Positions 3,636-29,477 of a stretch of DNA of 29,477 bases are shown here, piece after piece (position 1 is the stretch's first letter; each line of letters opens with the position of its first letter). The translations under genes and the position numbers were made by a program. A model generated the notes under the pieces. That model had not been told where the DNA came from. It made no database searches and was given only the letters and a program-made list of their open reading frames with translations. This stretch comes from a virus: positions 1 through 29,477 of the IMG/VR virus record IMGVR_UViG_3300027822_000403; one strand, given 5' to 3'.

Positions 3636-3641
3636 GTTACT

Positions 3642-7231: not shown

Positions 7232-7268
7232 CTGGGTTACGCGGGGGTTACGCCGTAAAGAAAACTCA

Positions 7269-7357: not shown

Positions 7358-7371
7358 CAGCTTTTTAGGTA

Positions 7372-7415: not shown

Positions 7416-7492
7416 TTTAAAATCAACAACTTACGATGGCACGCTTTTCGCGTCCTGACAACCTCCTTTTTACTCGGTACAAATCGGGACGT

Positions 7493-8766: not shown

Positions 8767-8804
8767 GGTCGGTGGTCTGGCTTGTCGATAGTTTCCACTG
8801 GCGA

Positions 8805-8885
8805 TTATGGGCAGTTCATCGCTGTTTCTGCCAGCCCTGGCACCACGCCGTTCGCTTTGACGGCGGCAGTTTCGCCGTTGATCAT
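8805..8885 (-). CDS. Possible 26-aa peptide coupled to the DUF7220 gene
   Basis: The ATG at 8885 overlaps the TGA of the upstream membrane protein gene (ATGA) and encodes MINGETAAVKANGVVPGLAE and six more residues. The overlap fits the pattern of this operon, where almost every gene junction is ATGA or GTGA. The size makes it uncertain. Confidence 0.35.
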   Translation of the reverse strand: MINGETAAVKANGVVPGLAETAMNCP

Positions 8886-9100
8886 TGTGCTTTTGCGTGA
8901 AGTCGGTTGAAAATCCGGCGCCAGATGTAGCAGCGGGTGATCGATACTGCCGTGAATATCGCAACGATGCCGGCATTTTGCGCCGGCGTGACCGGGAACC
9001 CGAACAGCGGATAGACGATCATGCCGAGCGCGTAGGAGATCGCCATGCCGGTGGCGACGTTGGTGACCGATTCGATGATGGATTGGGTTCTCGTTTGCAT
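8882..9100 (-). CDS. DUF7220-like two-helix membrane protein, 72 aa
   Basis: MQTRTQSIIESVTNVATGMA starts a small protein with two membrane helices: about residues 13-33 (VTNVATGMAISYALGMIVYPL) and 41-58 (QNAGIVAIFTAVSITRC), ending in a basic tail (IWRRIFNRLHAKAQ). This is the classic form of a widespread prophage family annotated DUF7220. Its function is not known. Start: ATG at 9100. It would lie in the inner membrane. Confidence 0.75.
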   Translation of the reverse strand: MQTRTQSIIESVTNVATGMAISYALGMIVYPLFGFPVTPAQNAGIVAIFTAVSITRCYIWRRIFNRLHAKAQ

Positions 9101-14112: not shown

Positions 14113-14136
14113 TCTACCTAGGTATAGGATAGTCAA
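14113..14136 (-). promoter_or_regulatory. Operator/promoter of the RelE-XRE module
   Basis: The palindrome TACCTAGGTA (14115-14124) lies just upstream of the toxin start. A leftward promoter of the form TTGAAC, 17 bp, TATCCT fits upstream of it; an alternative TTGACT (14136-14131), 18 bp, TATATT would start inside the gene. The palindrome would be placed for autorepression. Confidence 0.4.
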
Positions 14137-14178
14137 GATAAATCTTTAGTTCAATGCCAACTTCTTAGCTTTTTCTCG

Positions 14179-14871
14179 TCACCAAGGCTTGAACTTCTGC
14201 GGAGTAATGATCGCTGACACCGAGTGAATCTTTTCGATTTCGTCTTGCCTTAGCGTCATTCTGCCGTAACTGTCGTTCACGCTGGCGAATGCAAAATCGC
14301 CGTTGCGCTCGAACAGGAACTCCTTGACCATGCATCGTTCATTTTTTGTGCAGATGACGACGTATGAGCCGGAAAGGTACTCGCTGTTCGGCTCCACAAT
14401 CACAAACCAACCGCTTCGGATCGTGGGTGACATGCTGTCGCCCTGCACGCGTAATGCGTAAGCGTCCGGATCGCGGCTGAAGAATTCCACGTACCCCTCA
14501 CCTATACCGACAGGATATCCGGTCTCTGTCCAATACCCGTCCGGGCCGAGCTGGGCCGTGCCCATGACCGGGATTCTTCTGAAGTGTTCCGGTAGTTCCG
14601 GGCCTGGCTGGAGATCGGCGTCCATGTGTCCGGCTGGCTGTTCAGCAACATCACTGTCGCACATCGGGCCTTGGCCGGTGACTAGCCATTTGGGAGATAC
14701 CCCTAAAGCATCTGACACATTGATGAGGTTTTCTGCTTTCAAACCTTTTGTTTGGCCGTTTTCCCATTGACTTACCGCGGCGCGTTCAACACCAATAACC
14801 TTGGCCAAGGCGGTTTGAGTAAGCTTTAACTCCAATCTTTTTTTCTTGATTCGATCCCCAATTGTTTCCAT
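14179..14871 (-). CDS. cI: CI/LexA-type (S24) prophage repressor, 230 aa
   Basis: Master repressor of prophage B. The start METIGDRIKKKRLELKLTQT at 14871 gives an N-terminal XRE helix-turn-helix (about 17-45, TQTALAKVIGVERAAVSQWE). A LexA-like peptidase domain has catalytic S146 (GDSMSP) and K183 (MVKEF), so it should self-cleave during the SOS response. The cleavage site is probably near GTAQLG (104-109), where the usual Ala-Gly is not obvious. The ATG directly abuts the operator with no Shine-Dalgarno. Confidence 0.9.
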   Translation of the reverse strand: METIGDRIKKKRLELKLTQTALAKVIGVERAAVSQWENGQTKGLKAENLINVSDALGVSPKWLVTGQGPMCDSDVAEQPAGHMDADLQPGPELPEHFRRIPVMGTAQLGPDGYWTETGYPVGIGEGYVEFFSRDPDAYALRVQGDSMSPTIRSGWFVIVEPNSEYLSGSYVVICTKNERCMVKEFLFERNGDFAFASVNDSYGRMTLRQDEIEKIHSVSAIITPQKFKPW

Positions 14872-14935
14872 GTAAGTAATTTTACATTGTTTGGCGGAAA
14901 GTGCGCTTGACATCCATCCGCAAGTTTGCTTACAT
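14871..14935. promoter_or_regulatory. cI-cro divergent promoters and operators
   Basis: Rightward promoter: TTGACA (14907-14912), 17-bp spacer, TTACAT (14930-14935). A 14-bp operator GCAAGTTTGCTTAC (14920-14933) spans the spacer and -10. A second operator GTAAGTAATTTTAC (14872-14885) lies at the cI start and overlaps a leftward -10 TAAAAT. Together with the two sites at 11942-11982, the consensus is about GYAAGTNNNYTTAC. Both promoters would start transcription at or next to the ATG codons. Confidence 0.75.
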
Positions 14936-14941
14936 ACACTC

Positions 14942-15148
14942 ATGACTAAGAAACAAGCAATCGCTATTTTTGGGTCGGTTAAGGAGTTAGCTAAGTCTTT
15001 GAACATAACTCCACAGGCAATCTATCAATGGCCTGATGATTTGGAGCAACACACTATTGACAGGGTTGTCGGTGCTGCTGTACGTGCAGACAGATATCGA
15101 CACCAATCAAATTCGCCGCAAACCGAGAACCAAACCAATGCAGCCTAA
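14942..15148 (+). CDS. cro: Cro-like repressor, 68 aa
   Basis: MTKKQAIAIFGSVKELAKSL begins a small helix-turn-helix protein (AIAIFGSVKELAKSLNITPQ with AIYQWPD) of the Cro/YdaS type, divergent from cI. It probably turns down the repressor and early promoters in lytic growth. The ATG at 14942 lies 7 nt after the -10 box, so the mRNA is likely leaderless. A longer in-frame start at 14891 would lie upstream of the promoter and is rejected. Confidence 0.8.
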   Translation: MTKKQAIAIFGSVKELAKSLNITPQAIYQWPDDLEQHTIDRVVGAAVRADRYRHQSNSPQTENQTNAA

Positions 15149-15174
15149 TCGGCCCGCTGCCCATAGCAGCCACA

Positions 15175-15855
15175 ATGCAGCCCAAAAGACCAAACATGCC
15201 CCGAATCAACAAAGAAAAAGAGCGCCAAGCTAAGGCGGTTATGATCAAAGCAGGTCTCGCAACCGAAGAGGATTTTATGCCAACAAAACAATGCACCCAA
15301 TGCGCCTATCACCGGCGTTCCGAAAAAATGATCAAAGGCCAATCCGAGCACCGGTGCTTTCATGCGGACGTACTGCATTTCGGAGACGGGGCCAGTTGCC
15401 TGGCCGAAAGATCGGAAAAAGGCGCATGTGGACCGGAGGGGCTGCGGTTTTCCTCGATCGATCGCGCCAGTGCAGCCGCAATCGGCAGCAAAACGCTGTA
15501 TGCCGTTGCCAAGAACCAGGATGGCTCGGTTGAATTGACCGTGTATGAGCGAGGTAGAGCATGCACGGCCAATCTCTCGAAAGAGATGGCTGTGCAATTG
15601 GCCGGAGTGCTCATAACCAAGCCGACAGTGAAAAGTTGGGTTGATCCAGTTAAAGAGGCAAGGGCGGCAGCTGTGCGTCAACGTATTATTCAAGAATCTT
15701 TAGAACCCATTGTTCGCAGTGATCGATCGCCTTTCTTCGCGCGTCTGCGCCTTCTATTGCGGAATAGAGTTCCAAATTTCGCAAGGCTTCGAGTCTCCTT
15801 AACGCATCGCGCCGAAACTCTTCCTGGGGAATCGACTCAGCGATCGCAGCGATGA
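15175..15855 (+). CDS. Cysteine-containing early protein, up to 226 aa
   Basis: After a basic N-terminus, residues about 38-70 hold CTQCAYHRRS, then HRCFHADVL and GASCLAERS, a possible zinc-binding set. A domain ending near LAGVLITKPTV follows. The last 55 codons (from about 15690) run opposite a likely leftward gene and are arginine-rich, as expected of an antisense frame, so the real protein may be conserved only to about residue 170. Starts at 15175 and 15196 are both possible; neither has a strong Shine-Dalgarno. Confidence 0.6.
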   Translation: MQPKRPNMPRINKEKERQAKAVMIKAGLATEEDFMPTKQCTQCAYHRRSEKMIKGQSEHRCFHADVLHFGDGASCLAERSEKGACGPEGLRFSSIDRASAAAIGSKTLYAVAKNQDGSVELTVYERGRACTANLSKEMAVQLAGVLITKPTVKSWVDPVKEARAAAVRQRIIQESLEPIVRSDRSPFFARLRLLLRNRVPNFARLRVSLTHRAETLPGESTQRSQR

Positions 15856-15928
15856 GTTCCTGAAGTGCATAGATTTGGCATTGAATGTAGTGAAAGTTCT
15901 GATAAACAGGCTTGCTCGATTCATTCAT
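15686..15928 (-). CDS. Hypothetical helical protein, 80 aa, antisense to the previous gene's end
   Basis: The ATG at 15928 encodes MNESSKPVYQNFHYIQCQIY, then long amphipathic helices (ALQELIAAIAESIPQEEFRR, RDALRRLEALRNLELYSAIE). The composition is far more protein-like than the plus-strand frame it overlaps for 170 nt. A GAGG lies 12 nt upstream of the ATG, which is rather far. No family recognised. It may be a lysogenic cargo gene reading against the early operon. Confidence 0.5.
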   Translation of the reverse strand: MNESSKPVYQNFHYIQCQIYALQELIAAIAESIPQEEFRRDALRRLEALRNLELYSAIEGADARRKAIDHCEQWVLKILE

Positions 15929-16007
15929 AACTTTGGAGATCCTCGTGTTAAAAAAAATGTTTCGCACCATTAAGTTTAGTTCTTGGGTCTCTCTTTTTTC
16001 TGATAAC

Positions 16008-16082
16008 CGCGGGGTGGAGCAGTGGCAGCTCGTCAGTCTCATAAGCTGAAGGTCGCAGGTTCGAATCCTGCTCCCGCAACCA
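16008..16082 (+). tRNA. Initiator-like tRNA-Met (anticodon CAT)
   Basis: A complete cloverleaf: acceptor CGCGGGG, D-stem GAGC/GCTC with a short 7-nt loop, anticodon arm TCAGT-CTCATAA-GCTGA, variable loop AGGTC, T-arm GCAGG-TTCGAAT-CCTGC, acceptor TCCCGC-A, A73 and encoded CCA. It has the C1:A72 mismatch and the A11:T24 pair typical of initiator tRNA, but its anticodon stem lacks the three stacked G:C pairs initiators need. It lies inside prophage B and is followed by a terminator. Confidence 0.85.
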
Positions 16083-16168
16083 TCCTTTGTCGGTGCGCCC
16101 ACGTCACAACCAGACGCCGGTCGACCGCCGGCCGAGTCGGTTTCCCGGCGCATCACTCCTCAAAAATT

Positions 16169-16196
16169 GCCGGGCTGTCACGGCCCGGCTTCTTTT
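16169..16196 (+). terminator. Terminator after the tRNA
   Basis: The stem GCCGGGC (16169-16175) and GCCCGGC (16183-16189) with loop TGTCACG is followed by TTCTTTT. It lies about 90 nt after the tRNA and 20 nt before the next gene. Confidence 0.75.
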
Positions 16197-16210
16197 CTCG
16201 ATGAATCGCC

Positions 16211-16429
16211 ATGGCAAGACCGAAGATTCCTGAAAGCAAACAGAACCGTAACCGCAGAGTCGTCTACCTGGACGACGATTACGACCAGTTGATCCGGATC
16301 ATCGCGGCGCGCAAGGGCATGGCGCCCGGGGTGCTCGCGCGATCTTTGCTGATCTCGAAGTTGGATCAGTTGTCATCGATGCTCGGCGGTGATTCAGGCA
16401 AAAGAATAGCGCCTGATATCCCGGAATAG
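16211..16429 (+). CDS. Small ribbon-helix-helix-like protein, 72 aa
   Basis: MARPKIPESKQNRNRRVVYL followed by a helix (YDQLIRIIAARKGMAPGVLA) resembles short Arc/CopG-like DNA-binding proteins: a basic strand with VVYL, then two helices. The likeness is weak. It is the first gene of the rightward run after the tRNA terminator. No strong Shine-Dalgarno. Confidence 0.5.
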   Translation: MARPKIPESKQNRNRRVVYLDDDYDQLIRIIAARKGMAPGVLARSLLISKLDQLSSMLGGDSGKRIAPDIPE

Positions 16430-16441
16430 AAGGCACTAAAA

Positions 16442-16633
16442 ATGAAAAAGCCGATGGTGATCGATCTGGATGAGGTCGATGCCATGAGACTGGAGATATA
16501 TGCAGGCATTAAAAACAGTTCGCCCGAAGAGGAGGGGAAGCGGCTGATTGAGCAGGCGATTGGTGAATGGATCGAAACACTGGATGAGGATTATGACGAG
16601 AGATTGCGAAGTAAAAGCGGAAGAGATACGTGA
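16442..16633 (+). CDS. Hypothetical acidic protein, 63 aa
   Basis: MKKPMVIDLDEVDAMRLEIY and a helical remainder with many acidic residues. An AAGG lies 9 nt upstream of the ATG. The end overlaps the next gene by 41 nt. No family recognised; a short strand followed by helices could suit a regulator paired with the preceding gene. Confidence 0.5.
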   Translation: MKKPMVIDLDEVDAMRLEIYAGIKNSSPEEEGKRLIEQAIGEWIETLDEDYDERLRSKSGRDT

Positions 16634-16838
16634 GGCGGTCGTGTTGAGCAGGGGAGTGATTCGAGCGTTCGAGCGCGCGGAGGTCGCGGTTGCCTTTTTC
16701 AGGCTGGCGATTGCCAAAAAAGTGTTGACGGCGGAATTGAACCGGTTGATGTTTTCCATTTCTCACCGGCGGTATCTGCAGGTAGTGCAGCGGTTGGAGC
16801 GCTTCAGTCGTGGGATCGATCAGTTCATGCGGCAATAG
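16593..16838 (+). CDS. Hypothetical helical basic protein, 81 aa
   Basis: The start MTRDCEVKAEEIREAVVLSR at 16593 has GAGG just upstream. The protein is an arginine-rich helical hairpin ending RFSRGIDQFMRQ. Its start overlaps the previous gene in a different frame. Function unknown. Confidence 0.5.
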   Translation: MTRDCEVKAEEIREAVVLSRGVIRAFERAEVAVAFFRLAIAKKVLTAELNRLMFSISHRRYLQVVQRLERFSRGIDQFMRQ

Positions 16839-16840
16839 AT

Positions 16841-17128
16841 TCATGATGAATAGGAATCGACTGATTTTTCATATGGCTTGTCACAGTTCGAACACTTATA
16901 AACCCACTTTTGCCCGCCTAAATCGCCAAAAGGGCCGTCTTCTTTTATTTCAAGCAATTTAAGCGTTTGTTGTTCGCAATATGGACATGTATCGCCTTTT
17001 GCTTCGGGGTCTGATTCAAGCTGAGCAACACGGTCTTCAAGTCTTTTCACTTTGGCTGGCAGCGCTACAAGATCTTTCCATACAGGGATCTTTTCGAGGA
17101 GTTTAAGAATGTCAGATACAGAAATCAT
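16841..17128 (-). CDS. Coiled-coil plus zinc-ribbon protein, 95 aa, leftward moron
   Basis: MISVSDILKLLEKIPVWKDL, then a coiled coil (LPAKVKRLEDRVAQLES) and a C-terminal zinc ribbon with CPYC and CSNC about 35 residues apart. This domain pair is common in small phage cargo proteins. An AAGGTGG lies upstream of the ATG at 17128. The gene runs against the operon, and its first 20 nt overlap the start of the divergent plus-strand gene, so both promoters or leaders lie inside each other's coding sequence. Confidence 0.65.
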   Translation of the reverse strand: MISVSDILKLLEKIPVWKDLVALPAKVKRLEDRVAQLESDPEAKGDTCPYCEQQTLKLLEIKEDGPFGDLGGQKWVYKCSNCDKPYEKSVDSYSS

Positions 17129-17333
17129 TGAATTACCACCTTGGTTAAATAAGATCGTGCCGAGAGATAACGGTTTAATTGTAGCCAACATCGTGACGAA
17201 AGGATTGACGATCACAAGACACGATGACGGTACGATGTTGTTGACCACCCATGATCGTGGCAAATATATGAATTTCGTGCTCGATGAGGACATTTGCAAG
17301 CATTTGGCGCGCTTGCTCCTGGGGGAAAGTTAA
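17109..17333 (+). CDS. Hypothetical protein, 74 aa
   Basis: MSDTEIIELPPWLNKIVPRD, then beta strands (IVANIVTKGLTITRHDDGTM) and a helix at the end. GGAG is 8 nt before the ATG at 17109. It overlaps head to head with the leftward zinc-ribbon gene. No family recognised. Confidence 0.6.
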   Translation: MSDTEIIELPPWLNKIVPRDNGLIVANIVTKGLTITRHDDGTMLLTTHDRGKYMNFVLDEDICKHLARLLLGES

Positions 17334-17435
17334 ATGCTGCTGTCACACAACCAACTGCTGCAGCTGATCTGCGATGGCGCTATAACAATCAGAAAACGGT
17401 GTGCGGGAGCATGGGGGCTGCATGAGCGGTTCTGA
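17334..17435 (+). pseudogene. Possible remnant of a phage dCTP deaminase, 33 codons
   Basis: The ATG at 17334 has GGGGGAAAG upstream and overlaps the previous stop. MLLSHNQLLQLICDGAI reads like the N-terminus of phage-type dCTP deaminases, which begin with a similar LLS...LL..I..G.I pattern; after about residue 17 the likeness stops and the frame ends at 17435. It directly precedes a dNMP kinase gene, so a deleted deaminase would fit. It may instead be an unrelated small ORF. Confidence 0.35.
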
Positions 17436-18027
17436 CAATATGATCCTGATCGGCCTGGCGGGCCGTGCGGGCAGCGGTAAAACGACGGTGGCGAACTATT
17501 TATACGATCGGCATAGATTTTGTCCATTAGCATTTGCCAATCCGATTAAGCATGCATTGATGATGATGTTCGATATGACATTGCATCAGCTTGATGGCAA
17601 CACGAAAGAGGAGACGATCGATTGGTTGGGACGGTCGCCGCGCTATCTCATGCAGACTTTAGGCACAGAATGGGGCCGGGAGATGGTACATGAGGACCTA
17701 TGGCTGATGTTAGCCACTAGGAATCTGCAATCGTGTAAAAAAAACTGGATAGAAGTTTTTCGCTGTAAGCCATTCATGGCGGTTTATTCCGATGTACGCT
17801 TCGAGAACGAGGCCGCCTGGATACGGGATCGCGGCGGGGTGGTGGCGCATGTCGTCAGAGATACCGGGCGCAGCAGTGAGCACGCGTCGGAAGCTGGGGT
17901 CGAACTGATCGACGGCGATTGGCGGATCGATAACGACGGGTCGCTGGATGATCTACACGGATTGATCGACAGCATGATCGCATCGCTGAGCGCATTGCGA
18001 TATTACGATCGTGCTGCAGGGGTGTGA
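17422..18027 (+). CDS. Phage deoxynucleoside monophosphate kinase, 201 aa
   Basis: The Walker A LAGRAGSGKTTVANYL lies near the N-terminus, followed by CPLAFANPIKHALMMMF and the conserved region RSPRYLMQTLGTEWGREMVH, a signature of T4 gp1-like dNMP kinases, which phosphorylate dNMPs for phage DNA synthesis. The later DVRFENEAAWIRDRGG is also typical. Start: the ATG at 17422; a GTG at 17401 is the alternative. It overlaps the deaminase-like remnant by 14 nt. Confidence 0.85.
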   Translation: MSGSDNMILIGLAGRAGSGKTTVANYLYDRHRFCPLAFANPIKHALMMMFDMTLHQLDGNTKEETIDWLGRSPRYLMQTLGTEWGREMVHEDLWLMLATRNLQSCKKNWIEVFRCKPFMAVYSDVRFENEAAWIRDRGGVVAHVVRDTGRSSEHASEAGVELIDGDWRIDNDGSLDDLHGLIDSMIASLSALRYYDRAAGV

Positions 18028-18030
18028 CGA

Positions 18031-18267
18031 ATGGATGAGCACAATATCATTGCCGATCTGGCGACTGTCAAAGCGCAGCTGGAGGGGCATAAGAACGATC
18101 GCGAAGAGCTGATTAAAAGGGATGAGCAGATTTTCGCCGCGATAGAAGGTCTGCGCAAAGAAATGAACCAAATGAAAGGCTTCATTGGAGGGGTGGCGTT
18201 TGTATTCACGGGCATTGGGACGGCCGTCGGAATGGCAATTTCATATCTTTCCGGCGTTGGTCATTGA
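18031..18267 (+). CDS. Coiled-coil membrane protein, XhlA/holin-associated-like, 78 aa
   Basis: A coiled coil (LATVKAQLEGHKNDREELIK through AIEGLRKEMNQMKG) is followed by one glycine-rich membrane helix (FIGGVAFVFTGIGTAVGMAI) and a short tail. This layout is found in XhlA-like and similar small phage membrane proteins. No lysis genes are adjacent, so a lysis role is uncertain. It lies between the dNMP kinase and primase genes. Confidence 0.6.
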   Translation: MDEHNIIADLATVKAQLEGHKNDREELIKRDEQIFAAIEGLRKEMNQMKGFIGGVAFVFTGIGTAVGMAISYLSGVGH

Positions 18268-18290
18268 TTTGTACGAGATGGAGATTGCCG

Positions 18291-19127
18291 ATGGATTACT
18301 CTGAGATAATCGATCAGATGGCGGATGTTGGAATCGGCGGGCTGCCCGCATCGGATTTGGTCGCCGACGGCAAAATACACCGGTTCAAAACGGCCGGCGA
18401 CAAAAAGAAGAATGGCTGGTTCGTTTTGTTCGATTTCGTCGGCGATTCCGGAGATCGGTTGATTGCCGGGGCATTTGGCGATTGGAAACTCGGGGTTTCC
18501 GAGCATGTGAAGGTCAATTGCGAGCGGATGAGCGATGCGGAGTGCGAGCGGTTCGTGCGCGAGCAGGAGCGGGCGAGAAAAGCGGCGCAGGAAGAGCGTC
18601 GGCTGGTGGCCGAACAGACGGCGGATCGGGCGGAGAAAATCTGGCAGGGGTTGCCGGACGAAGGTCAATCGCCATATCTCGATCGCAAGAAAGTGCGCGC
18701 GTTCGGGTTGCGATTCTCGCGTGGGAGCATTGTCGTTCCGGTGCGGGATATCGATGGCAAGCTGTGGGGTTTGCAGTTCATTGCCGCCGATGGCTCGAAA
18801 AAGTTTCTGACCGGGACGGCTAAAAAGGGTCGGATGCATTTGATCGGCGATCGTGACAGCGTCACAGTCATCGGCGTCGCCGAGGGGTATGCCACGGCAG
18901 CCAGCGTGCATCAGTCATGTGGGTGGCCTGTTGCGGTGGCGTTCGATGCCGGAAATCTGAAAGCAGTGTCGATGGCATTGCGGGGCAGGCATCCGGATGC
19001 ACGCATTGTTGTTTGCGGAGATGATGATCTAAAAACCGAGGGTAATCCTGGCAGATCTGCCGCTGAAGCAGCTGCTGCTGCCGTCGGCGGCATTGCGCTG
19101 TTTCCCGGGCTGCCAATTGCTGCGTGA
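18291..19127 (+). CDS. Toprim-domain primase, 278 aa
   Basis: The start MDYSEIIDQMADVGIGGLPA has GGAG upstream; an upstream TTG is less likely. The N-terminal part (HRFKTAGDKKKNGWFVLFD) is a small domain found before phage primases, then a charged helix, then a Toprim region with VIGVAEGYATAASVH (catalytic glutamate) and ARIVVCGDDDLKTEGNPG (DxD). It should synthesise primers or act with the helicase encoded next, to which it is coupled by GTGA. An N-terminal zinc finger of CHC2 type is absent. Confidence 0.85.
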   Translation: MDYSEIIDQMADVGIGGLPASDLVADGKIHRFKTAGDKKKNGWFVLFDFVGDSGDRLIAGAFGDWKLGVSEHVKVNCERMSDAECERFVREQERARKAAQEERRLVAEQTADRAEKIWQGLPDEGQSPYLDRKKVRAFGLRFSRGSIVVPVRDIDGKLWGLQFIAADGSKKFLTGTAKKGRMHLIGDRDSVTVIGVAEGYATAASVHQSCGWPVAVAFDAGNLKAVSMALRGRHPDARIVVCGDDDLKTEGNPGRSAAEAAAAAVGGIALFPGLPIAA

Positions 19128-20761
19128 AATCCGTGGATTGGAACGATTTGCTGGTTTCTGGCGGTACCGATGAGGTACGGCGCCAGATCGAAGCGGGCAT
19201 TGCAAAAAACGATCGATCACAACAGCAGGTCGAAGAATCGTGGAAGCGATTTGAAAAGCGCATCAATGACGCTGTCGAGGATTTCGATGGACTGATCGCA
19301 ATCGCGGATGAGATTCAGTCAGCTGACATTCATCCGGCGCATTGCGATCGATTGCTGAAACAGATTGCCAAGGCTGGTCGTGTAAGCGTCGCTTCGTTGA
19401 AAAAGAAGCGCGGAGACGGCGGGTCAGGCGGGTTTTCTGCGGATAATTTGGATTGGCTCGATGAGCTCAACGGCCGGCATGCCATCGTGCCGGTATCGGG
19501 CAAGGTCTTGGTGATGAATCAGGAATACGATCCGGCCCTGGATAGAAACCTGGTGACGTTTTCCGCGCGTCAGGATTTTCTGCTGCGCTACGAAAACCAG
19601 AAAACGTTCGTCCGAGGCACTCTTATCAGCATTGGATTGGCCTGGCTGGAGCATCCACGACGACGGCAATACGATGGAATCGTGTTTGCTCCTGGTAAGA
19701 CGGTCGACGGGCATTTCAATCTATTTCAGGGGTTCGGTGTGCAGCCATCGGAGAGCGGGTCATTCGCACTGTTCGAGGAGATGTTGACCGATATCATCTG
19801 TGGGGGTAATTCCGAGCTGTTCTGTTATGTCTGGGGCTGGCTGGCGCATCTGTTTCAGAAGCCTGCCGAGCTCCCGGGTACGTCATTGGTGCTGCGGGGT
19901 AAGCAGGGGACAGGGAAAAACACGTTCGTCGATGCGATCGGGCAGCTGGTTGGTAAATCGCATTACATTTCGCTGACCAGTTTGCAGCAGGTCACCGGGC
20001 GGTTTTCCGGGCACCTGGCGGATGCGTTGCTGATATTTGCCAACGAAGCGATATGGGGCGGCGATAAATCGGCGGAAGGTGCGTTGAAGGCGATGGTGAC
20101 CGATTCGCTCTCTGCGATCGAGCGCAAGGGGAAGGATATCGTCGCGATGCGCAATTACAAAAGGCTGATCGTTGCCAGCAACGAGGATTGGATCATTCCG
20201 CGCGGAATGGACGATCGGCGATTCATCATCATCGATGTGTCGGACGAGCACAAGGAGGATCACGCCTATTTCAAGGCGATCAAAAAACAGTTGATGCGGG
20301 GCGGGTTGGAAGCTTTGATGCAGGCATTGATGGATGCCGATATATCAGGGTTCGATCCAAGGAAAATTCCTGAGCGTGTGCGACAGTCCGGCTGGGAGTT
20401 GAAAATAAGGTCCGGCGGGTCGGTTCTGCAATGGTGGTTTTCCATACTGGACCAAGGATATCTGACAAAAGAAGGCGGGGGCTATGGCGACGAACCATTT
20501 TATCTTTGGCCGGAAAAAATGGAGAAATCAGAATTGCACCGGTTGTATCTGAGATGGTGCGAGCAACACAGATTGCAGCATCCTGAAATCGATGTCGTAA
20601 TGGCGAAAAAATTGCGCGAATGGGGGCTTGCTTCGAAACGACAACGGGAAAATGGAGAACGCATCAATCGATATCTGTTTCCATCGCTGGATGAGTTGCG
20701 TTCCGTTTTTTCAATCATATGCAATATTCCATTATCGTATTGGGATGGTGATAGTGAATAA
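19124..20761 (+). CDS. DUF5906 replicative helicase, 545 aa
   Basis: Superfamily 3-like helicase of the NrS-1 polymerase/DUF5906 group. Walker A GKQGTGKNT at 259-267, Walker B LLIFANEA at 301-308, a sensor ASNED with N353, and arginines at 365-366 (DDRRF). The N-terminal 100 residues are helical and carry no polymerase motif, the primase being a separate gene upstream. GTG start at 19124 overlapping the primase stop. The inverted-repeat region immediately downstream is the likely origin. Confidence 0.88.
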   Translation: MKSVDWNDLLVSGGTDEVRRQIEAGIAKNDRSQQQVEESWKRFEKRINDAVEDFDGLIAIADEIQSADIHPAHCDRLLKQIAKAGRVSVASLKKKRGDGGSGGFSADNLDWLDELNGRHAIVPVSGKVLVMNQEYDPALDRNLVTFSARQDFLLRYENQKTFVRGTLISIGLAWLEHPRRRQYDGIVFAPGKTVDGHFNLFQGFGVQPSESGSFALFEEMLTDIICGGNSELFCYVWGWLAHLFQKPAELPGTSLVLRGKQGTGKNTFVDAIGQLVGKSHYISLTSLQQVTGRFSGHLADALLIFANEAIWGGDKSAEGALKAMVTDSLSAIERKGKDIVAMRNYKRLIVASNEDWIIPRGMDDRRFIIIDVSDEHKEDHAYFKAIKKQLMRGGLEALMQALMDADISGFDPRKIPERVRQSGWELKIRSGGSVLQWWFSILDQGYLTKEGGGYGDEPFYLWPEKMEKSELHRLYLRWCEQHRLQHPEIDVVMAKKLREWGLASKRQRENGERINRYLFPSLDELRSVFSIICNIPLSYWDGDSE

Positions 20762-20795
20762 ATATACAAAGACCACTTCTAATGAATGGTATTGG

Positions 20796-21060
20796 CCCGG
20801 GTGGCCAATTGCCGGCCAGGGTGAGCATAAGGCGTAAACCCAGCATTCATGCGGTCTGTCCCGGGTGGCCCGGGTGACCATAGTGAATCTCGCGCGTATA
20901 CGCGCGTACGTGTCTTTTCATAAGCCATGATTAATATTTAGCAAACAGAAAGAAAATGCCCTATACGCGTAAACATTCACTATGGACACTATGGTCACCC
21001 GGGACAGACCGCATGAATGCTGACTTTTGTGACCAAAAAGTGTCCCGGGTGGCCAGGGTG
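20796..21060. repeat. Large inverted repeat and CCCGGGTGGCC repeats, candidate replication origin
   Basis: Two 47-nt arms (20842-20888 and 20975-21021) share 26 identical outer bases (starting AGCATTCATGCGG) and CCATAGTGAAT at the inner end. Between them are a 16-bp perfect palindrome CGCGCGTATACGCGCG (20891-20906) and an AT-rich segment. CCCGGGTGGCCA occurs outside both arms (20796-20807 and 21044-21055) and CCCGGGTG within them. This fills the 458-bp gap between the helicase and terminase genes; no gene is seen in it. Dyads next to primase and helicase genes suggest an origin. Confidence 0.6.
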
Positions 21061-21219
21061 AAAAACGTAAGTGCTTGATAGTTGGTGTTTGATGTCAGTT
21101 TTTAATGGGTCCTTCCTGCCGAAAGCCGGTAGCGAAACAAAAGCGCGCGGTTTTTGGCTAGTGGGTGGGGGCGGAATAGGTTGTGCTGATGAGTGGCGTT
21201 GGTTGATCGGAGTGATTTG

Positions 21220-21774
21220 ATGCCGGATTTGATGACGTATGCGGAATATGCGGGCCATCGCAAGGCGAAGGGGCTGTCGGGCGGGACCGGGCAGGCTGTT
21301 GCCAAGGCGGTGCAGTCCGGGCGGATCAGTTTGATCGATGGGAAGATCGATCCGGATGTCGCTGACATCCAGTGGGCCGCCAATACACGCAAGAGGGCTG
21401 ATTATCATGGGGACAATAGGAGCGACCGCGCGGAAGGCAAAAAACCGTTGAGCGTTGGCGCCGGCAAGCCGGGTTGGGCGGATGCGAAGGCACGCACCGA
21501 AGCTGCCACAGCTGCGTTGAAAGAATTGGAGCTCGACGAGCGCCGCGGGAATCTTGTGGACAAGACCGGTACCGAGCGCGCCGCTTTTTCGCTGGCGCGG
21601 ATGCTGCGGGATGCGCTGGTGACGACATTGCCGTCGAAATATGCCGCAGAGCTTGCATCATTGTCGGATCCGTGGGAGTTGGAATGCCGTTTGCGGGAAA
21701 TCATGCGCAACGAGCTGACAGCGGTATCCGGCATGGTGATGGAAGATCCAGAGGAGATCGATGATGCGGCCTGA
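21220..21774 (+). CDS. Terminase small subunit-like protein, 184 aa
   Basis: The start MPDLMTYAEYAGHRKAKGLS has GGAG 7 nt upstream. The N-terminal helix-turn-helix (TYAEYAGHRKAKGLSGGTGQ, then AVAKAVQSGRISLIDGKID) and the C-terminal helical part (RTEAATAALKELELDERRGN) match Nu1/DUF1441-type small terminase subunits, which recognise packaging sites. It overlaps the large subunit by 14 nt. Confidence 0.8.
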   Translation: MPDLMTYAEYAGHRKAKGLSGGTGQAVAKAVQSGRISLIDGKIDPDVADIQWAANTRKRADYHGDNRSDRAEGKKPLSVGAGKPGWADAKARTEAATAALKELELDERRGNLVDKTGTERAAFSLARMLRDALVTTLPSKYAAELASLSDPWELECRLREIMRNELTAVSGMVMEDPEEIDDAA

Positions 21775-23716
21775 TGGTTTCCGTGTTTACGCGAACGCTT
21801 TCCAATCCGGGCTGATGCCGGATCCGCCGTTGATGGTCGACGAGTGGTCCGAGAAACACATGGTGATTCCCGCCGAGGCCGGTGCCGCGGAGCCGGGGCC
21901 GTATCGGATTGCGCGGACGCCATTTGCGCGCGATGTGCTGCGAGCATTGTCGCCGGAACATCCGGCGAAAAAGGTCGTGGTGATGGGCGCGTCACAATTG
22001 CTGAAAACACAGGTCGGGCTCAACTGGGTGAGCGCCATCATCTGCAATGCGCCGGCGAATGTGATCGTGCTGTTGCCGACCGACAAGCTGGCCAAGAGGA
22101 TATCGTCCCGGTTCGACAAGATCGCTCAGGTGGTAGCACCGTTGCGTGCAACAGTGGCCGCGAAACGGTCGCGGGACAATCGGAATACGTTGGACACGAA
22201 AGAGTTCAACGGCGGCACCATCTGGTTCCTCACAGGCCGCTCAGCGGGCAATTTGTCCGAGGCCTCGGCAAGATACATCTACGTCGACGAAATCGACAGG
22301 CTGCTGCGAGAGATCCAGGGAGAGGGTGATCCGATCGGCCTGGTCGAGAAACGCGCATCGACCTACGGGAAGAAGGCGAAATTCTACTACACCAGCTCGC
22401 CGACTGAAGAAGATGCCAGCCGGATCATGGAACTGTTCCTGTCCGGCGATCAGCGCCGCTATTTCGTGCCATGTCCGCATTGCGGCGAAAAGCAGACGCT
22501 GGAATGGGAGAACCTGCAGTACGACCCGGCCAAAGGCGATGCCTGGTATGCGTGCTCGGCCAACGGCTGCATGATCCGGCACGGCGAAAAAACGAAAATG
22601 CTGGAAGGCGGAGAGTGGCGAGCCTCCGAAAAAGGCGACGGCGAGACGACCAGCTATACGATATCGGCGCTTTACGCCCCGATCGGCTGGACATCCTGGA
22701 TGGATCTCTCGCGGGAGTTCATCGACGCAGAGATCGAGTTGAAAAAGGGCGATCCGGAAAAGATGCAGGTGTTTTACAACACCAGGCTGGCGCGGGTGTG
22801 GAGCCCGGCATCAGTTCACATCAAACCGGAAGATCTGATGGAAACCGCCGAAGCATTCCCGCTCGGGATCATCCCGGAAGGCGGCATCATCCTCACGGCC
22901 GGCGTCGATGTTCAAGGCAACAGGATCGAGGTCGACATTTATGCCTGGGGACCAGGCCCATGCGGCCTCGAGCCGTGGACTGTGAATACACAGGTGATCT
23001 ATGGCAATCCGACATTGGACGAACCATGGGCCGAACTCGACACCATCCTGAAAACGCCGATCAGGCACGTCAGCGGCTCGTTTCAATTGATCACGGTCGC
23101 CTGCGTGGATTCCGGCGACGGCAATTACACGCAGGAGGTCTACGAGTTCTGCCGGATGCGGCGTCGGCGCTGGATCAACGGCCAGACTCAACACGTCATG
23201 GCGATCAAAGGCTCATCCAAGCCCGGCAGGCCGATCATCGCCGGCCAGCCGAGCGCGCAGGACGTCAATTTCCGCGGCAAATACATCCCAGCCGGGGTAA
23301 AGCTCTGGTCGGTCGGCGATGCGACCCAGAAATGGGTATCCAACCGCATCGAAACGATCATGGCCAGAGACGAAAAGATGCGCCGGCAGGCGATCCACTT
23401 CAGCAAAGACCTGCCGATCGAGTTTTACCAGCAGCTGCTCGGCGAAGCGAAGCAGATCGTTCGCCACCGCGGCCGCAAGGTCACGCGCTGGATCGCACGA
23501 TCCGGCCAGCCGATCGAGCGGCGCGATATTTTACGCTATGCGCTGTTCGGAGCCGTGTTTCTCGGGCTGGATCGGTTCACGGACGAGCGCTGGGAGCGCG
23601 AGCGCGGGAAACTGGCGCAGGCCGACCTGTTCGTCACCGGATCATCCGAAACGGCCCGGGCAAAACCGACTCCGCAGGAACCGAAACAGCCATCGGGGTA
23701 CTACGTGCCATCATGA
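21761..23716 (+). CDS. Terminase large subunit, GpA family, 651 aa
   Basis: DNA-packaging motor of the lambda gpA family. A degenerate Walker A-like GASQLLKTQ lies at 76-84, Walker B YIYVDEIDR at 172-180, a zinc knuckle with C238, C241, C265 and C270, and a nuclease core AGVDVQGNRIEVDI with D383. The length is normal and no break is seen, so it appears intact. GAGGAG precedes the ATG. Unusually, it is not followed by a head-tail connector, portal or protease gene. Confidence 0.92.
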   Translation: MMRPDGFRVYANAFQSGLMPDPPLMVDEWSEKHMVIPAEAGAAEPGPYRIARTPFARDVLRALSPEHPAKKVVVMGASQLLKTQVGLNWVSAIICNAPANVIVLLPTDKLAKRISSRFDKIAQVVAPLRATVAAKRSRDNRNTLDTKEFNGGTIWFLTGRSAGNLSEASARYIYVDEIDRLLREIQGEGDPIGLVEKRASTYGKKAKFYYTSSPTEEDASRIMELFLSGDQRRYFVPCPHCGEKQTLEWENLQYDPAKGDAWYACSANGCMIRHGEKTKMLEGGEWRASEKGDGETTSYTISALYAPIGWTSWMDLSREFIDAEIELKKGDPEKMQVFYNTRLARVWSPASVHIKPEDLMETAEAFPLGIIPEGGIILTAGVDVQGNRIEVDIYAWGPGPCGLEPWTVNTQVIYGNPTLDEPWAELDTILKTPIRHVSGSFQLITVACVDSGDGNYTQEVYEFCRMRRRRWINGQTQHVMAIKGSSKPGRPIIAGQPSAQDVNFRGKYIPAGVKLWSVGDATQKWVSNRIETIMARDEKMRRQAIHFSKDLPIEFYQQLLGEAKQIVRHRGRKVTRWIARSGQPIERRDILRYALFGAVFLGLDRFTDERWERERGKLAQADLFVTGSSETARAKPTPQEPKQPSGYYVPS

Positions 23717-23952
23717 AAGCAAACGCCATGGCCACATTGGAACGGGAAATCGCCAGAAGCGGCGTCGACCCATTCCCGATCATCGAGCGCTGGCTGATGG
23801 TTGAGGGCGGGCAGGAGGTCTATCTGCCGCGCAGCTTTCGCGACGAGCGGAATGAGCGGATATGCCGGTTGTATGCGGCTGGAGTGAAGATTTGTCAGAT
23901 ATCGAAGATTTTCGGTATCAGCCGGCGGACGGTGGAGAGGATTTTGAAATGA
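23713..23952 (+). CDS. Mor-like HTH protein, copy 1, 79 aa
   Basis: The ATG overlaps the terminase stop. The core YLPRSFRDERNERICRLYAA, then GVKICQISKIFGISRRTVER is a helix-turn-helix like that of Mor/GemA-type phage transcription activators. A diverged second copy lies at 25505-25736 after the KilA-N gene. It could regulate late transcription or simply be cargo. Confidence 0.7.
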   Translation: MKANAMATLEREIARSGVDPFPIIERWLMVEGGQEVYLPRSFRDERNERICRLYAAGVKICQISKIFGISRRTVERILK

Positions 23953-23957
23953 CCGGG

Positions 23958-24239
23958 TTATTTGAATATTCCGAAGAGAAGATCGAGATAGTCGCATTTC
24001 ATGAGGTAGCCGGAGATCCAGATAGCAACACCGATCATGAAAGCTTTCACCCGATAGATCAACGACGATTTCCTGATCCGCTCGGCAAGCTGATCGGCGA
24101 ACAATCTGCCATTCGTATTGGCGCCTTTCCAGAGAAGATCGTGGATCTCATCGGTTTTGCTGTCGCTGTCACGCAGTACCTTACCATCGGCATAGCCATC
24201 CGAGATCAGCTCGCTGGCCAATTTCCAATCTTTTTCCAT
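23958..24239 (-). CDS. Leftward hypothetical protein with membrane helix, 93 aa
   Basis: MEKDWKLASELISDGYADGK starts a charged helical protein ending in one hydrophobic helix (AFMIGVAIWISGYLM) and a short hydrophobic tail. The ATG at 24239 is preferred because further upstream the frame lies opposite the divergent gene; a longer start at 24308 exists. Like the zinc-ribbon gene at 16841-17128 it reads against the operon and suggests a lysogenic cargo gene. Confidence 0.5.
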   Translation of the reverse strand: MEKDWKLASELISDGYADGKVLRDSDSKTDEIHDLLWKGANTNGRLFADQLAERIRKSSLIYRVKAFMIGVAIWISGYLMKCDYLDLLFGIFK

Positions 24240-24258
24240 CAACTCATCGGAGTTCAAA

Positions 24259-24441
24259 ATGCGTAAGTATTCTTTTTTCCAGGAAGAATGGTTCGATGTT
24301 CTCATCATTGGTATCGTGGCATTTCCTTTAGGTGCGTTTGTTCCGCCTCATATCTCTCTCCCACTCTTAATTTTGTTTTTCGCTTTATGGTGGCCAATAA
24401 AAGAATATCTCATGGATCGATTACGAGGTGACGATGAATAG
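24259..24441 (+). CDS. Small two-helix membrane protein, 60 aa
   Basis: GGAG lies 6 nt before the ATG. MRKYSFFQEEWFDVLIIGIV starts a protein with two hydrophobic helices around a proline-rich turn (AFVPPHISLPLL), ending in a charged tail. It is divergent from the leftward gene and overlaps the Icd-like ORF by ATGA. No family recognised. Confidence 0.6.
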   Translation: MRKYSFFQEEWFDVLIIGIVAFPLGAFVPPHISLPLLILFFALWWPIKEYLMDRLRGDDE

Positions 24442-24709
24442 TGTAGTTGACCTTGTTGAAAAATGGTGTTCATTGAAAGTGCACCGGCACAATCCGGTGT
24501 CGGGATTGGTCTCCCGAAGCAATCAGCGCAGACGCGCCATTCGAGCGCGTTTTTTCATGTCCGGAATTCCAGTTATGGCGGGCTGTGCGCGGGAGCCGTC
24601 AGGCTCGCCTGACCCCGGTTGCCAGGTAGACCAACCCGTACAGCCCGCCGCCTTTGATTGGTCTCAATGGTGGCGGTTTTTCCAAAAAGGCCAAGGAGAA
24701 CCATCATGA
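24434..24709 (+). CDS. Icd/Ash-like ORF over the C4-like RNA of element B, 91 aa
   Basis: AGGTGACG precedes the ATG at 24434, which overlaps the previous stop. The frame runs through the C4-like RNA and has the recurrent wording of Ash-family ORFs (NPVSGLVSRSNQRRRAIRAR, then FFMSGIPVMAGCAREPSGSP). Its last codons overlap the KilA-N gene start. In phage P1 the matching order is c4, icd, ant; translation of icd is needed for ant, and C4 RNA blocks it. Any effect of the peptide on cell division is by analogy only. Confidence 0.6.
   Translation: MNSVVDLVEKWCSLKVHRHNPVSGLVSRSNQRRRAIRARFFMSGIPVMAGCAREPSGSPDPGCQVDQPVQPAAFDWSQWWRFFQKGQGEPS
24506..24665 (+). ncRNA. C4-like antisense RNA unit of element B
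   Basis: Order: target TTGGTCTC (24506-24513), terminator hairpin (24533-24555), arm GGCGGGCTGT (24577-24586), hairpin GAGCC-GTCA-GGCTC (24593-24606), antisense AGACCAA (24628-24634), closing arm ACAGCCCGCC (24640-24649), second target TTGGTCTC (24658-24665) followed by AATGGTGGC. This is the layout of C4 antisense RNA, known from P1/P7 and many prophages to silence the antirepressor. The gene immediately downstream is a KilA-N antirepressor, as expected. Confidence 0.7.
24533..24555 (+). terminator. Terminator hairpin in the C4-like leader
   Basis: The stem CGCGC (24533-24537) and GCGCG (24545-24549) is followed by six T residues. It occupies the same place as the hairpin in element A and probably ends most leader transcripts. 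Confidence 0.65.
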
Positions 24710-25515
24710 CCGCACTTACCGTAATCAATACCTCAATCCGTCTGCATGACGGGCTGTATTCCCTGAACGATCTGCACAAAGCCGCTGGACACGAGAAGAA
24801 ACACCAGCCAGCTCTTTTCCTGCGCACAGATCAAACTAAGGCGCTGATTGAAGAGATAGAGTGCTCTACAGATATGCAGATCACTCCAATCAAGACCATT
24901 CGCGGCAATCGTGCGGATGGAACACCACAAGGCACCTACGCCTGCAAAGAACTCGTCTACGCCTACGCCATGTGGATCAGCGCCAAGTTCCATCTGGAAG
25001 TCATCCGGGCATTCGATGCCATGGTGACCGGAAATCGGCCCGGGACCTGCGACGGCGGCAACCCGTTCGATCGTGTCAATCCAAGAATTCTGTCAGAGCT
25101 TCGGAGACTGGCGCCAAAGGCAGCGATCGAATATCTCATAGGCTGCGGTGTACCCAGGGAATATTTCCGGCCGGCACAAGCGAGCAAGCCAGTCGCTGCG
25201 AGAATGTCGTCAAGACAGAGCGTCGACGATGATGTCGTGCCGCCGGATCGGTTGATTTCCGGAATCCCGGAGCTGGCCGATTGGCAGGATGCGAATTATT
25301 GGTATCTGCTTCGCCAGAGTTTTGAACGTATCTGTGCCGGGCGTGATGTAACCGCAACCGCGCGGCACATTCGCGATCGGGGCTATCTGAAATGCGGAAA
25401 GTGGTCGCTGATGTGGCGCGCTCCTCGTGGATTTTGCAAAAAGCGATCATCCGTCTTCGCAATCAGCAAAAAAATCGCAGAACTCAACACCGATGGAGGC
25501 CGCCATGCTGCGTGA
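24706..25515 (+). CDS. KilA-N domain antirepressor, 269 aa
   Basis: The start MTALTVINTSIRLHDGLYSL has AAGGAG upstream. The N-terminal half is a KilA-N domain (LNDLHKAAGHEKKHQPALFL, then GTYACKELVYAYAMWISAKF and HLEVIRAFDAMV), the fold of P1/P22-type Ant and KilA proteins. The C-terminal half is separate, with helices and a basic end. As antirepressor it would bind or displace the prophage repressor. It is preceded by the C4-like RNA and icd-like ORF, exactly as in the P1 immI operon. Confidence 0.85.
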   Translation: MTALTVINTSIRLHDGLYSLNDLHKAAGHEKKHQPALFLRTDQTKALIEEIECSTDMQITPIKTIRGNRADGTPQGTYACKELVYAYAMWISAKFHLEVIRAFDAMVTGNRPGTCDGGNPFDRVNPRILSELRRLAPKAAIEYLIGCGVPREYFRPAQASKPVAARMSSRQSVDDDVVPPDRLISGIPELADWQDANYWYLLRQSFERICAGRDVTATARHIRDRGYLKCGKWSLMWRAPRGFCKKRSSVFAISKKIAELNTDGGRHAA

Positions 25516-25736
25516 ACCCGAACACAAGATCATCGACGACAGTCTCGGATGCAACCGCCGTTCACACAACGGCGGATCGCCTTCGGCATCCGCGCAACGC
25601 TGGCTACCTCCCGTGCAGCTTTCGGGATGAGCGGAACGAAAGGATATGCCGGTTGTATTCGGACGGTCTTGGAGTCGGGCAGATATCGGAGATGTTCAAT
25701 CTCAGCCCGAGGACCGTGCGGAGGATTGTGAGGTGA
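25505..25736 (+). pseudogene. Mor-like HTH protein, copy 2, apparently frameshifted
   Basis: The ATG at 25505 with GGAGG upstream overlaps the KilA-N stop and encodes MLREPEHKIIDDSLGCNRRS, but this frame ends at 25630. The homology to copy 1 continues in another frame from about 25604 (YLPCSFRDERNERICRLYSD, then ISEMFNLSPRTVRRIV) to 25736. The two halves together would be about 76 residues, close to the 79 of copy 1. A single-base slip, or a sequencing error, would explain it. A start inside the second frame is not obvious. Confidence 0.55.
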
Positions 25737-25740
25737 TGAT

Positions 25741-25878
25741 ATGCTTCCTGAAAGTTTCTGCTGCGCGGAAAGGATGCAAGGGATAGAATTGGAATGCACC
25801 GGTGGAAACACCGGCCGAAACGACAGCTTACTCACTTTCAGTGGCATTTCCGTGATGGACGATGCCAATGGGGCCTGA
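25741..25878 (+). CDS. Small hypothetical protein, 45 aa
   Basis: The ATG at 25741 has AGGTGAT upstream and follows the HTH copy by 4 nt. The peptide MLPESFCCAERMQGIELECT continues to a stop at 25878 with ordinary composition. No family recognised. It is the last likely gene of prophage B. Confidence 0.45.
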   Translation: MLPESFCCAERMQGIELECTGGNTGRNDSLLTFSGISVMDDANGA

Positions 25879-25945
25879 CCGGAACGGTTTTTGGCCTTCT
25901 CGGCGGAGTCTTCCACGGGCCGCAAGGTTTCAAGGAGAAATCCCA

Positions 25946-26212
25946 ATGTTGTTTGCTATCCATTACGAAATCACACCCGAGCACCGCGATACCGTTCTTG
26001 AACGCTTCTTGAAGATAGGCGATGCTGAGCCAGAGGGAGTAAAAATTATCGGGAACTGGTTTTCTGTAACCCAGCTCGAAGGCTGGAGTGTTGTCGAGGC
26101 AGCCGATTCCCTGGAGCTTGGCGCATTGTTCCATGCTTGGACCGACTTGAATGTCAACCACATTACGCCGGTGGTAGACGAAGCGGGCATGCGTAAGCTC
26201 TTAACGAACTAA
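25946..26212 (+). CDS. DUF3303-like protein, 88 aa
   Basis: MLFAIHYEITPEHRDTVLER, followed by PEGVKIIGNWFSVTQLEGWS and ITPVVDEA, matches the small alpha-beta barrel pattern of DUF3303 proteins. This family is chromosomal rather than phage, so the host flank probably begins here. AGGAG lies about 8 nt before the ATG. Function unknown. Confidence 0.7.
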   Translation: MLFAIHYEITPEHRDTVLERFLKIGDAEPEGVKIIGNWFSVTQLEGWSVVEAADSLELGALFHAWTDLNVNHITPVVDEAGMRKLLTN

Positions 26213-26564
26213 GCGCAGCTCCATTCGAGGCACCTGTCGGTCATGTGCGCTAAAAATGCATCTAGCGAATTGAGTGTTACCACAGACCGCTTGTGCAATG
26301 GGAGACCTGACCCCATGCATGCTTATGGTGCATTGGAAAATACGAAGACACCGTCAAGCTATGGTGTACACTTCGCGACAGTAGGAAATGTAGTTCGTCA
26401 ATAAATGCAACAATAAGAGAACTGACTCTGTGCTCTCTTTAAAAGAGGTCGAAAATTAATTTTACTCCGACCCAAATTATCGAGACGATCAGATCGTCGT
26501 TGACATCCACCTCAAGAATGTTGCAATGTGAGAACTGACCCCATCCGTTTGCATTGATTACGAT
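26213..26564. other. Non-coding stretch with repeat copies
   Basis: No gene is seen. The stretch holds GTGCAATGGGAGACCTGACC-type sequence at 26293-26314 and the first 112-bp direct repeat at 26439-26550, both repeated after the hydrolase gene. Several motifs of the form GAGA(A/C)CTGACYC recur. Confidence 0.6.
26439..26550 (+). repeat. 112-bp direct repeat, copy 1
   Basis: From TTAAAAGAG to CCATCCGTTT this sequence is repeated at 27533-27644 with about four mismatches by eye. It ends 14 bp before the hydrolase ATG, so it includes that gene's leader. Confidence 0.85.
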
Positions 26565-27362
26565 ATGCCAAAAGCAATATTGAATGGTATTGACCTTTAT
26601 TATGAAATTCAGGGTAAAGGCAAACCGCTGATACTTATCTCCGGTTTAGCCAGTGACTCGCAAAGCTGGCAGGCGGTAATCAAGAACCTGTCTCGGCACT
26701 ACCTTGTCATAACCCCCGATAACAGAGGTGTAGGCAGAACAATGCCTCAGAATATCGAGATAAGCATCCGGCAGATTGTCCACGATAGTGTTGCGCTTAT
26801 CAAACACCTGGGGCTTTCATACGTCAACCTGGTTGGCCATTCAATGGGGGGGTTTGTGGCCTTGGATCTCGCCATACGTTACCCTGACTGCGTTAACAAG
26901 CTAATCCTTGCTGGAACATCGGTCTCAAATTCCAAGCGCAACAATGCTCTGTTTTCTGATTGGGCCTCATGCTTGGAATCTCGGATGGACCTGGGAATGT
27001 GGTTTCGGACCATCTTCTACTGGATATTTTCGAGGCGGTTCTTTGAAAACGATGCGGCTGTAAACGATGCGGTGCGATTTGCAATTGAATATCCTTATCC
27101 GCAGAGTGCAGCCGCGTTCCGAAATCAGGTTAAGGCGATGACAAGTTATGATGGCACCGAAGATCTATCGCGAGTCCGCGCAAAGACTATGGTGATTAGC
27201 GGGAAAGAAGACCTCTTATTCCCTACGGGAGAAAGTTCTGACCTGGCACGGGCGATCCCCAGAGCCTATCTTTCGGTGATAAGCAACGCCGCCCATTCCA
27301 TACACATGGAACGACCTCAAGCATTCACCAATTGCGTTCTGGATTTCCTGCTTGATCGCTAA
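26565..27362 (+). CDS. Alpha/beta hydrolase, 265 aa
   Basis: A full-length serine hydrolase. The oxyanion region (LILISGLASDSQSW), the nucleophile elbow GHSMGG, the acid in SGKEDLLFP and the histidine in AAHSIHME form the expected catalytic triad. The substrate cannot be told. No signal peptide is seen, so it is cytoplasmic. The Shine-Dalgarno is weak. It stands alone between two 112-bp direct repeats, which suggests it moved in or was duplicated around as a cassette-like unit. Confidence 0.88.
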   Translation: MPKAILNGIDLYYEIQGKGKPLILISGLASDSQSWQAVIKNLSRHYLVITPDNRGVGRTMPQNIEISIRQIVHDSVALIKHLGLSYVNLVGHSMGGFVALDLAIRYPDCVNKLILAGTSVSNSKRNNALFSDWASCLESRMDLGMWFRTIFYWIFSRRFFENDAAVNDAVRFAIEYPYPQSAAAFRNQVKAMTSYDGTEDLSRVRAKTMVISGKEDLLFPTGESSDLARAIPRAYLSVISNAAHSIHMERPQAFTNCVLDFLLDR

Positions 27363-28018
27363 CCCGCGGCTACACCGCGCCACTGAGCTGCAACATTATC
27401 CCGATTCAAAAAGGCACATCTGAATGCCGGCTTTGGGTCGATAGCTGCTGTTCAAAGTAGCCAGAGCGATTACGAGCCCTGACCGGCAGCTACCGGCTAG
27501 GAGCGGACGCTCAAACACAATGTGCGGCATCGTTAAAAGAGATTGAAAATTAATTTTACTCTGACCCAAATTATCGAGGCGATCAGATCGTCGTTGACAT
27601 CCACCTCAAGAATGTTGCAATGTGAGAACTGACCCCATCCGTTTCAACATAATATGAGCGAGAATGAAGAACTCAAGGATCGAATTGGCGACAAGTGGCG
27701 AAAATTGATCGAGAACAAAAAAGCACGGCGAACAGATTGAACGTGCAATGGGAGACCTGACCCCGCGCATGCTTTGACCCCACGCACTTGTTTCCGATTG
27801 TAAGATTTTCTGATGCTTGGTATTCTGGCTGAGGCAAGGGCTGGTTTCGGCCATGAGTGGGCGTTGGGGCGAGCTTCATGTCTACCCATAGAGGTAAAAG
27901 ACAAGACTCGACCCCTTTATAAGCAAGCGCAGAGCTTGTGCGGGGAGCTGCAACCCCATTCGTTGTGAATGCTAAGCGTGAGAATGCCTTTGTTATCTTT
28001 GAAAAAGGAGTAACCGCT
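27363..28018. other. Non-coding stretch with repeat copies
   Basis: No convincing gene is seen in 656 bp. It holds the second 112-bp repeat (27533-27644) and the second copy of the 22-bp GTGCAATGGGAGACCTGACC motif (27743-27764). A GC-rich dyad around 27481-27510 (CCGGCAGCTACCGG) may be part of a terminator or dispersed repeat. Confidence 0.5.
27533..27644 (+). repeat. 112-bp direct repeat, copy 2
   Basis: A same-orientation copy of 26439-26550, about 1.1 kb away. A short open frame through both copies (DDQIVVDIHLKNVAM then stop) may be the 3' end of a once-duplicated gene, but it is too short to judge. Confidence 0.85.
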
Positions 28019-29380: not shown

Positions 29381-29394
29381 CGATCAGGCCGCAC

Positions 29395-29436
29395 TGTTTT
29401 TCCGTCGTGCGAGGAACGAGCGCCAGAGGAAAAACA
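29395..29436. terminator. Inverted repeat after the lipoprotein gene
   Basis: Arms TGTTTTTCC (29395-29403) and GGAAAAACA (29428-29436) pair perfectly around a 24-nt GC-rich segment. It begins 15 nt after the stop and could be a bidirectional terminator or the edge of an inserted element. Confidence 0.4.
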
Positions 29437-29477
29437 AAGTAGGCATCCGAACAATCGCGTCTAGCCATTTGAGGGAG

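Follow-up and report, generated by a model that had tools for sequence, protein, structure and literature searches.

The 29,477-nt stretch of viral DNA analysed here (IMG/VR record IMGVR_UViG_3300027822_000403; hereafter the window) carries a large inverted repeat in the intergenic region between the stop of a helicase gene (20761) and terS (21193). A contig of the host MAG, UBA2778 (Methylococcaceae), matches window positions 14124 to 25758 exactly. The locus is organised as follows.

18264–19127, plus strand: Toprim (DnaG-type) primase (Pfam Toprim_3, E 3e-10; PHROG DNA primase, E 1e-73)
19124–20761, plus strand: DUF5906/D5-type helicase, the proposed origin-binding initiator (Pfam DUF5906, E 2e-24)
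20306–20758, plus strand: helicase C-terminal region, predicted winged helix and candidate iteron-binding domain (AF2 pLDDT 81.6)
20793–20830, plus strand: outer left iterons, exact at 20793 and degenerate at 20802 (by eye), 20813 and 20822
20841–20888, plus strand: left arm of the inverted repeat (repeat search, arm alignment)
20857–20883, plus strand: inner left cluster of three forward iterons, TGTCCCGGG, TGGCCCGGG and TGACCATAG
20891–20906, no strand: 16-bp palindrome CGCGCGTATACGCGCG (sequence reading, spacer comparison)
20907–20965, no strand: AT-rich stretch, candidate DNA unwinding element (composition, 69% AT)
20975–21022, minus strand: right arm of the inverted repeat (repeat search, arm alignment)
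20980–21006, minus strand: inner right cluster of three reverse iterons, TGTCCATAG, TGACCATAG and TGTCCCGGG
21030–21058, plus strand: outer right iterons, exact at 21041 and 21050 and degenerate at 21030
21193–21774, plus strand: terminase small subunit, a neighbour outside the proposed origin (PHROG phrog_57, E 1e-18)
21761–23716, plus strand: terminase large subunit of the gpA type, likewise a neighbour outside it (Pfam GpA_ATPase, E 7.5e-71)

The primase and helicase genes overlap by 4 nt. At the other end of the locus, the sequence that follows TerL (23716–29477) yielded no identifiable gene for a portal, capsid or tail protein, and the prophage may therefore be defective, a remnant or rearranged. 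This interval holds KilA-N, DUF3303 and alpha/beta-hydrolase genes, and two short HTH-like C-terminal segments that resemble each other (SFRDERNERICRLY...; 23820–23952 and 25605–25736) lie on either side of the KilA-N gene. A search for att repeats yielded no convincing pair. Elsewhere, the window encodes a phage-borne homologue of the DNA polymerase III beta clamp (9391–10485) and a tRNA-Met gene (16008–16082) that separates the repressor region from the replication genes. Adjacent tyrosine integrases (6007–7230 and 7493–8566), together with a DUF3631 gene (1559–3139), suggest that positions 1–8976 are two mobile elements side by side.

A repeat search of the region aligned 20836–20888 with 20975–21027 at 87% identity. 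The two arms match at 42 of 47 tested positions, compared with 27–29 at best in five shuffles of the region, and the outer 26-base block CAGCATTCATGCGGTCTGTCCCGGGT, which starts at 20841, recurs as its reverse complement at 20997. The preliminary description of two arms with 26 identical outer bases is thus borne out, as is the AT-rich segment that it had reported: the spacer between the inner iteron clusters (96 bp) is 60% AT and its AT-rich stretch exceeds this value, against 48% for the window. On the other hand, the 16-bp palindrome described as central does exist, but adjoins the left arm instead of occupying the centre. Similarly, the CCCGGGTGGCC boxes placed outside both arms are indeed repeated and flank them (20796 and 21044), but a further copy, at 20860, lies within the left arm.

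What had been overlooked is the building block common to these boxes and the arm interiors, a 9-bp tandem iteron (TGDCCNNRG) found on the plus strand at 20793, 20857, 20866, 20875, 21041 and 21050, and on the minus strand at 20980, 20989 and 20998. With at most one mismatch, a two-unit iteron pattern yielded eight matches where 1.2 were expected, a count reached in none of 100 shuffles. All six exact matches to the two-unit pattern map to the inverted-repeat region, which is also the sole occurrence of the three-unit pattern in the 3.9-Mb host MAG.

The first exact iteron (20793) lies directly 3' of the helicase stop. The structural model of this helicase (pLDDT 84.6) retrieved in Foldseek the NrS-1 helicase (6k9c, E 4e-16) and the SaPI5 primase-helicase (7ola, E 4e-9). 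Most hits of its last 150 residues were to winged-helix proteins, the RFX DNA-binding domain (1dp7) among them, all weak and none significant. Sequence searching of the PDB gave nothing beyond the NrS-1 helicase and weak matches to RFX winged helices. Divergence of the iterons correlated with that of the helicases (Mantel r 0.48); the C-terminal domain was not singled out, with a partial r of 0.14 (p 0.034) versus 0.17 for the ATPase domain. Covariation specific to the C-terminal domain could not be separated from overall helicase divergence and was set aside.

We then turned to related loci. Relatives of the helicase and of TerL in viral contigs were collected with alignment queries; single-sequence scans gave nothing. 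The raw iteron pattern proved unspecific across viral contigs, with many matches inside long ORFs, because collagen-like genes share its 9-nt period, and a motif-free detector of tandem 9–10-bp repeats on both strands within 420 bp (threshold score 3) was therefore used. The layout, whose occurrence in relatives had been put forward as a check, was recovered directly 3' of the gene in all four distinct members of the closest viral helicase relatives (49–56%), each time with another iteron: TGTGCCAGG in L099, TGGTCCAGG in the near-identical loci L100–L102, TGGTCTAGG in L103 and RCGTCCYRA in L104. More broadly, 33 of 80 helicase loci, three of these 33 being near-identical, scored at least 3, and shuffled loci reached a maximum of 2. 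Every one of the 33 repeats lies downstream of the helicase, 28 of them no more than 450 bp from its stop where two were expected. The other 47 relatives, many of which are virulent YuA-like phages, fell below the threshold of a detector with limited sensitivity, which misses both L104 and the window itself (found by motif scan) because their iterons are degenerate. A frequent arrangement among detector loci is the mirror image 2F-1R-3F / 3R-1F-2R (L144, L147 and L177), and across seven measured loci, the starts of the inner clusters are separated by 112–134 bp.

The layout also occurs ~3 kb downstream of the helicase in Roseobacter phage RDJL6 and Rhizobium phage RHph_X2_30, while the scans made of phages Sonora, CN1, S218 and Donnerlittchen revealed no matching iteron pattern behind it. 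Among 185 genomes of the host class, 13 encode the domain. A two-strand repeat, if only a weak one, is present at eight of the 15 loci, in most cases directly behind the helicase; the score admitted here is low, and some of these repeats may be noise. Further arrays were seen along the way. An inverted-iteron layout (TGTCCCAAG) lies behind a D5_N-type primase-helicase in L058 (1–250) and L091 (5800–6130), preceding in the latter genes that resemble packaging-side genes; a second DUF5906 gene of the host MAG is followed by a separate array of AACCGCAC repeats (L292, 840–1050); and a long GCGCCCT tandem array sits beside TGGCCAGGG iterons behind a DUF5906 helicase in L062 (480–750).

Comparison of the spacers uncovered a CGCGCG tract, represented in the window by the palindrome at 20891–20906, in 22 of the 24 examined, mostly near the left inner cluster, a feature that is also new. 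Alternating GC-rich runs of at least 10 nt were present in 96% of these spacers versus 3% of background windows, and AT-rich maxima were raised (0.63 versus 0.52 in the background), figures that are descriptive in that the spacers were taken from detector-positive or hand-read loci. It is conceivable, though less likely than not, that the CG tract just inside one iteron cluster is a conserved working part of this class of phage and plasmid origins; a barrier prone to forming Z-DNA or a hairpin, for instance, could fix the side of melting. If so, the origins would be structurally asymmetric despite their mirror-image iterons.

Since the terminase genes begin just after the repeat block, the preliminary description had also considered a packaging recognition site. 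At a cos or pac site of this sort, the small terminase would bind the boxes and the terminase would cut nearby to start packaging; the block does lie between the replication genes and terS, starting ~130–400 bp upstream of the latter, and a gpA-type TerL is present. Lambda-type phages do have cos sites upstream of terS. Nevertheless, the gene that follows the layout is not constant. It is terS plus a gpA TerL in the window, L104 and L144, an HK97-type TerL in L101 and L109, a tape-measure protein gene in L152 and L156, and a member of an unknown family in L133, L146 and L176, with reverse-strand genes elsewhere. Moreover, the dyad follows the helicase gene in small circular plasmids for which no terminase is annotated, namely Roseomonas NZ_CP024585.1, Vibrio vulnificus pMP1 and M. 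nodulans pMNOD07 (L269, L270 and L271), with a weaker one in a C. freundii plasmid (L273). In a K. pneumoniae plasmid with the helicase, the 9-bp repeats all run the same way, and behind the helicase of Rhizobium pTH2c no such repeats were seen. Conversely, among 77 gpA-TerL relatives with enough upstream sequence, the sole convincing dyad belongs to L234, which is also the sole one with a related helicase; the 76 loci without the helicase gave no convincing dyad and four weak score-2 matches. The site does not travel with terminase genes, and we rejected the packaging reading, which we now deem improbable, on this linkage to the helicase instead of the terminase. A separate cos site within the same intergenic stretch is possible.

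A regulatory region with no start site, in which the iterons would be operators that let the helicase or a repressor govern the late genes or its own dosage (by handcuffing), is similarly hard to sustain. The outer clusters do lie near the terS start, and iterons elsewhere have copy-control roles too, but the layout keeps its position downstream of the helicase whatever the next gene and strand, and resembles a tested origin. That the block arose by chance or is of low complexity, for instance a terminator or the decayed remains of a repeated coding sequence, can be practically dismissed: collagen-like Gly-X-Pro coding sequence also yields a 9-nt repeat, but the block is intergenic, runs in both orientations and keeps its layout in relatives despite sequence change.

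Because the layout is conserved behind the helicase in phages, prophages and plasmids and matches the functionally tested origin of the E. coli satellite EcCICFT073, we are confident that the prophage starts its replication here, as the preliminary description had proposed, at an origin (ori) whose iterons the upstream DUF5906/D5-type helicase would bind. A GC-skew check, suggested at the same time, did not help this case, with no sign change at the repeat site; the 47 helicase relatives below the detector threshold, the covariation that is not specific to the C-terminal domain and the possibly defective state of the prophage likewise weigh against it. By analogy with SaPI Rep and Cch2, on which we modelled the mechanism (PMC7581432), copies of the helicase would bind the 9-bp iterons, probably via the C-terminal winged helix, and form oppositely oriented rings, presumably on the two inner clusters. 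These rings would melt DNA, probably where the spacer is AT-rich, and load onto the strands, where the adjacent Toprim primase could prime two forks. Alongside the observed repeat anatomy, conservation and linkage to the helicase, both helicase binding and the sufficiency of the initiator plus an iteron ori are supported by precedent.

A 2018 paper knew this layout from no other replicon. New here is that a prophage with a terminase of its own, many phages and plasmids have it; an earlier phage description may exist, the literature covered being open-licence papers. Behind one and the same helicase family, the layout is now known from prophages that carry a terminase, from many metagenomic phages, from several small plasmids and from two named phages. 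The survey thereby gives a sequence-only rule to locate replication origins, turns a domain labelled a 'family of unknown function' into a testable candidate family of origin-binding initiators, and supplies dozens of iteron-initiator pairs for deciphering the recognition code.

Among known systems, the alpha protein of satellite P4 is a primase-helicase initiator that recognises short iterons, as proposed for the window, and P4 ori and crr are two cis elements with iterons other than those found here. The helicase domain of NrS-1 is the best structural match of the window helicase but, unlike it, is fused to an AEP PrimPol, and what has been considered as a possible origin in the NrS-1 genome is a pair of 8-nt primase sites, not an iteron dyad (PMC7102993). 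SaPI Rep/ori and SCCmec Cch2, which binds repeats downstream of its own gene, share with the window a self-loading D5-type helicase and iterons just 3' of the gene (PMC7581432), the SaPI5 primase-helicase being a Foldseek relative. However, these are Gram-positive islands, SaPIs have AEP-type primases where the window has Toprim, and the likeness considered is one of layout. In PICIs, the origin directly follows the initiator gene on its 3' side, and two iteron sets flanking an AT-rich stretch are always part of it; rep-ori of EcCICFT073 supports the replication of a plasmid, which fails when either rep or ori is deleted (PMC6092414). Our scan of the EcCICFT073 region uncovered 9-bp TGTCTACC iterons, arranged 2F-1R-3F followed by reversed copies and positive in the detector. 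It differs from the window in being a satellite without its own terminase, as expected of PICI satellites, whereas the window encodes a gpA TerL (21761–23716), and in having an SSB gene downstream, an inner gap of ~25 bp where the window has 96 bp, no CGCGCG tract in the part that was read, and full-length proteins that align weakly (25% over 102 aa). In both, however, iterons of similar period and order lie directly behind a D5_N/DUF5906 gene (pri-rep in EcCICFT073) and opposed sets, three forward and three reverse 9-mers in the window, flank an AT-rich stretch. Together, this pattern shared with an experimentally proven origin indicates that the repeat block is most likely an iteron origin of the PICI (rep-ori) kind.
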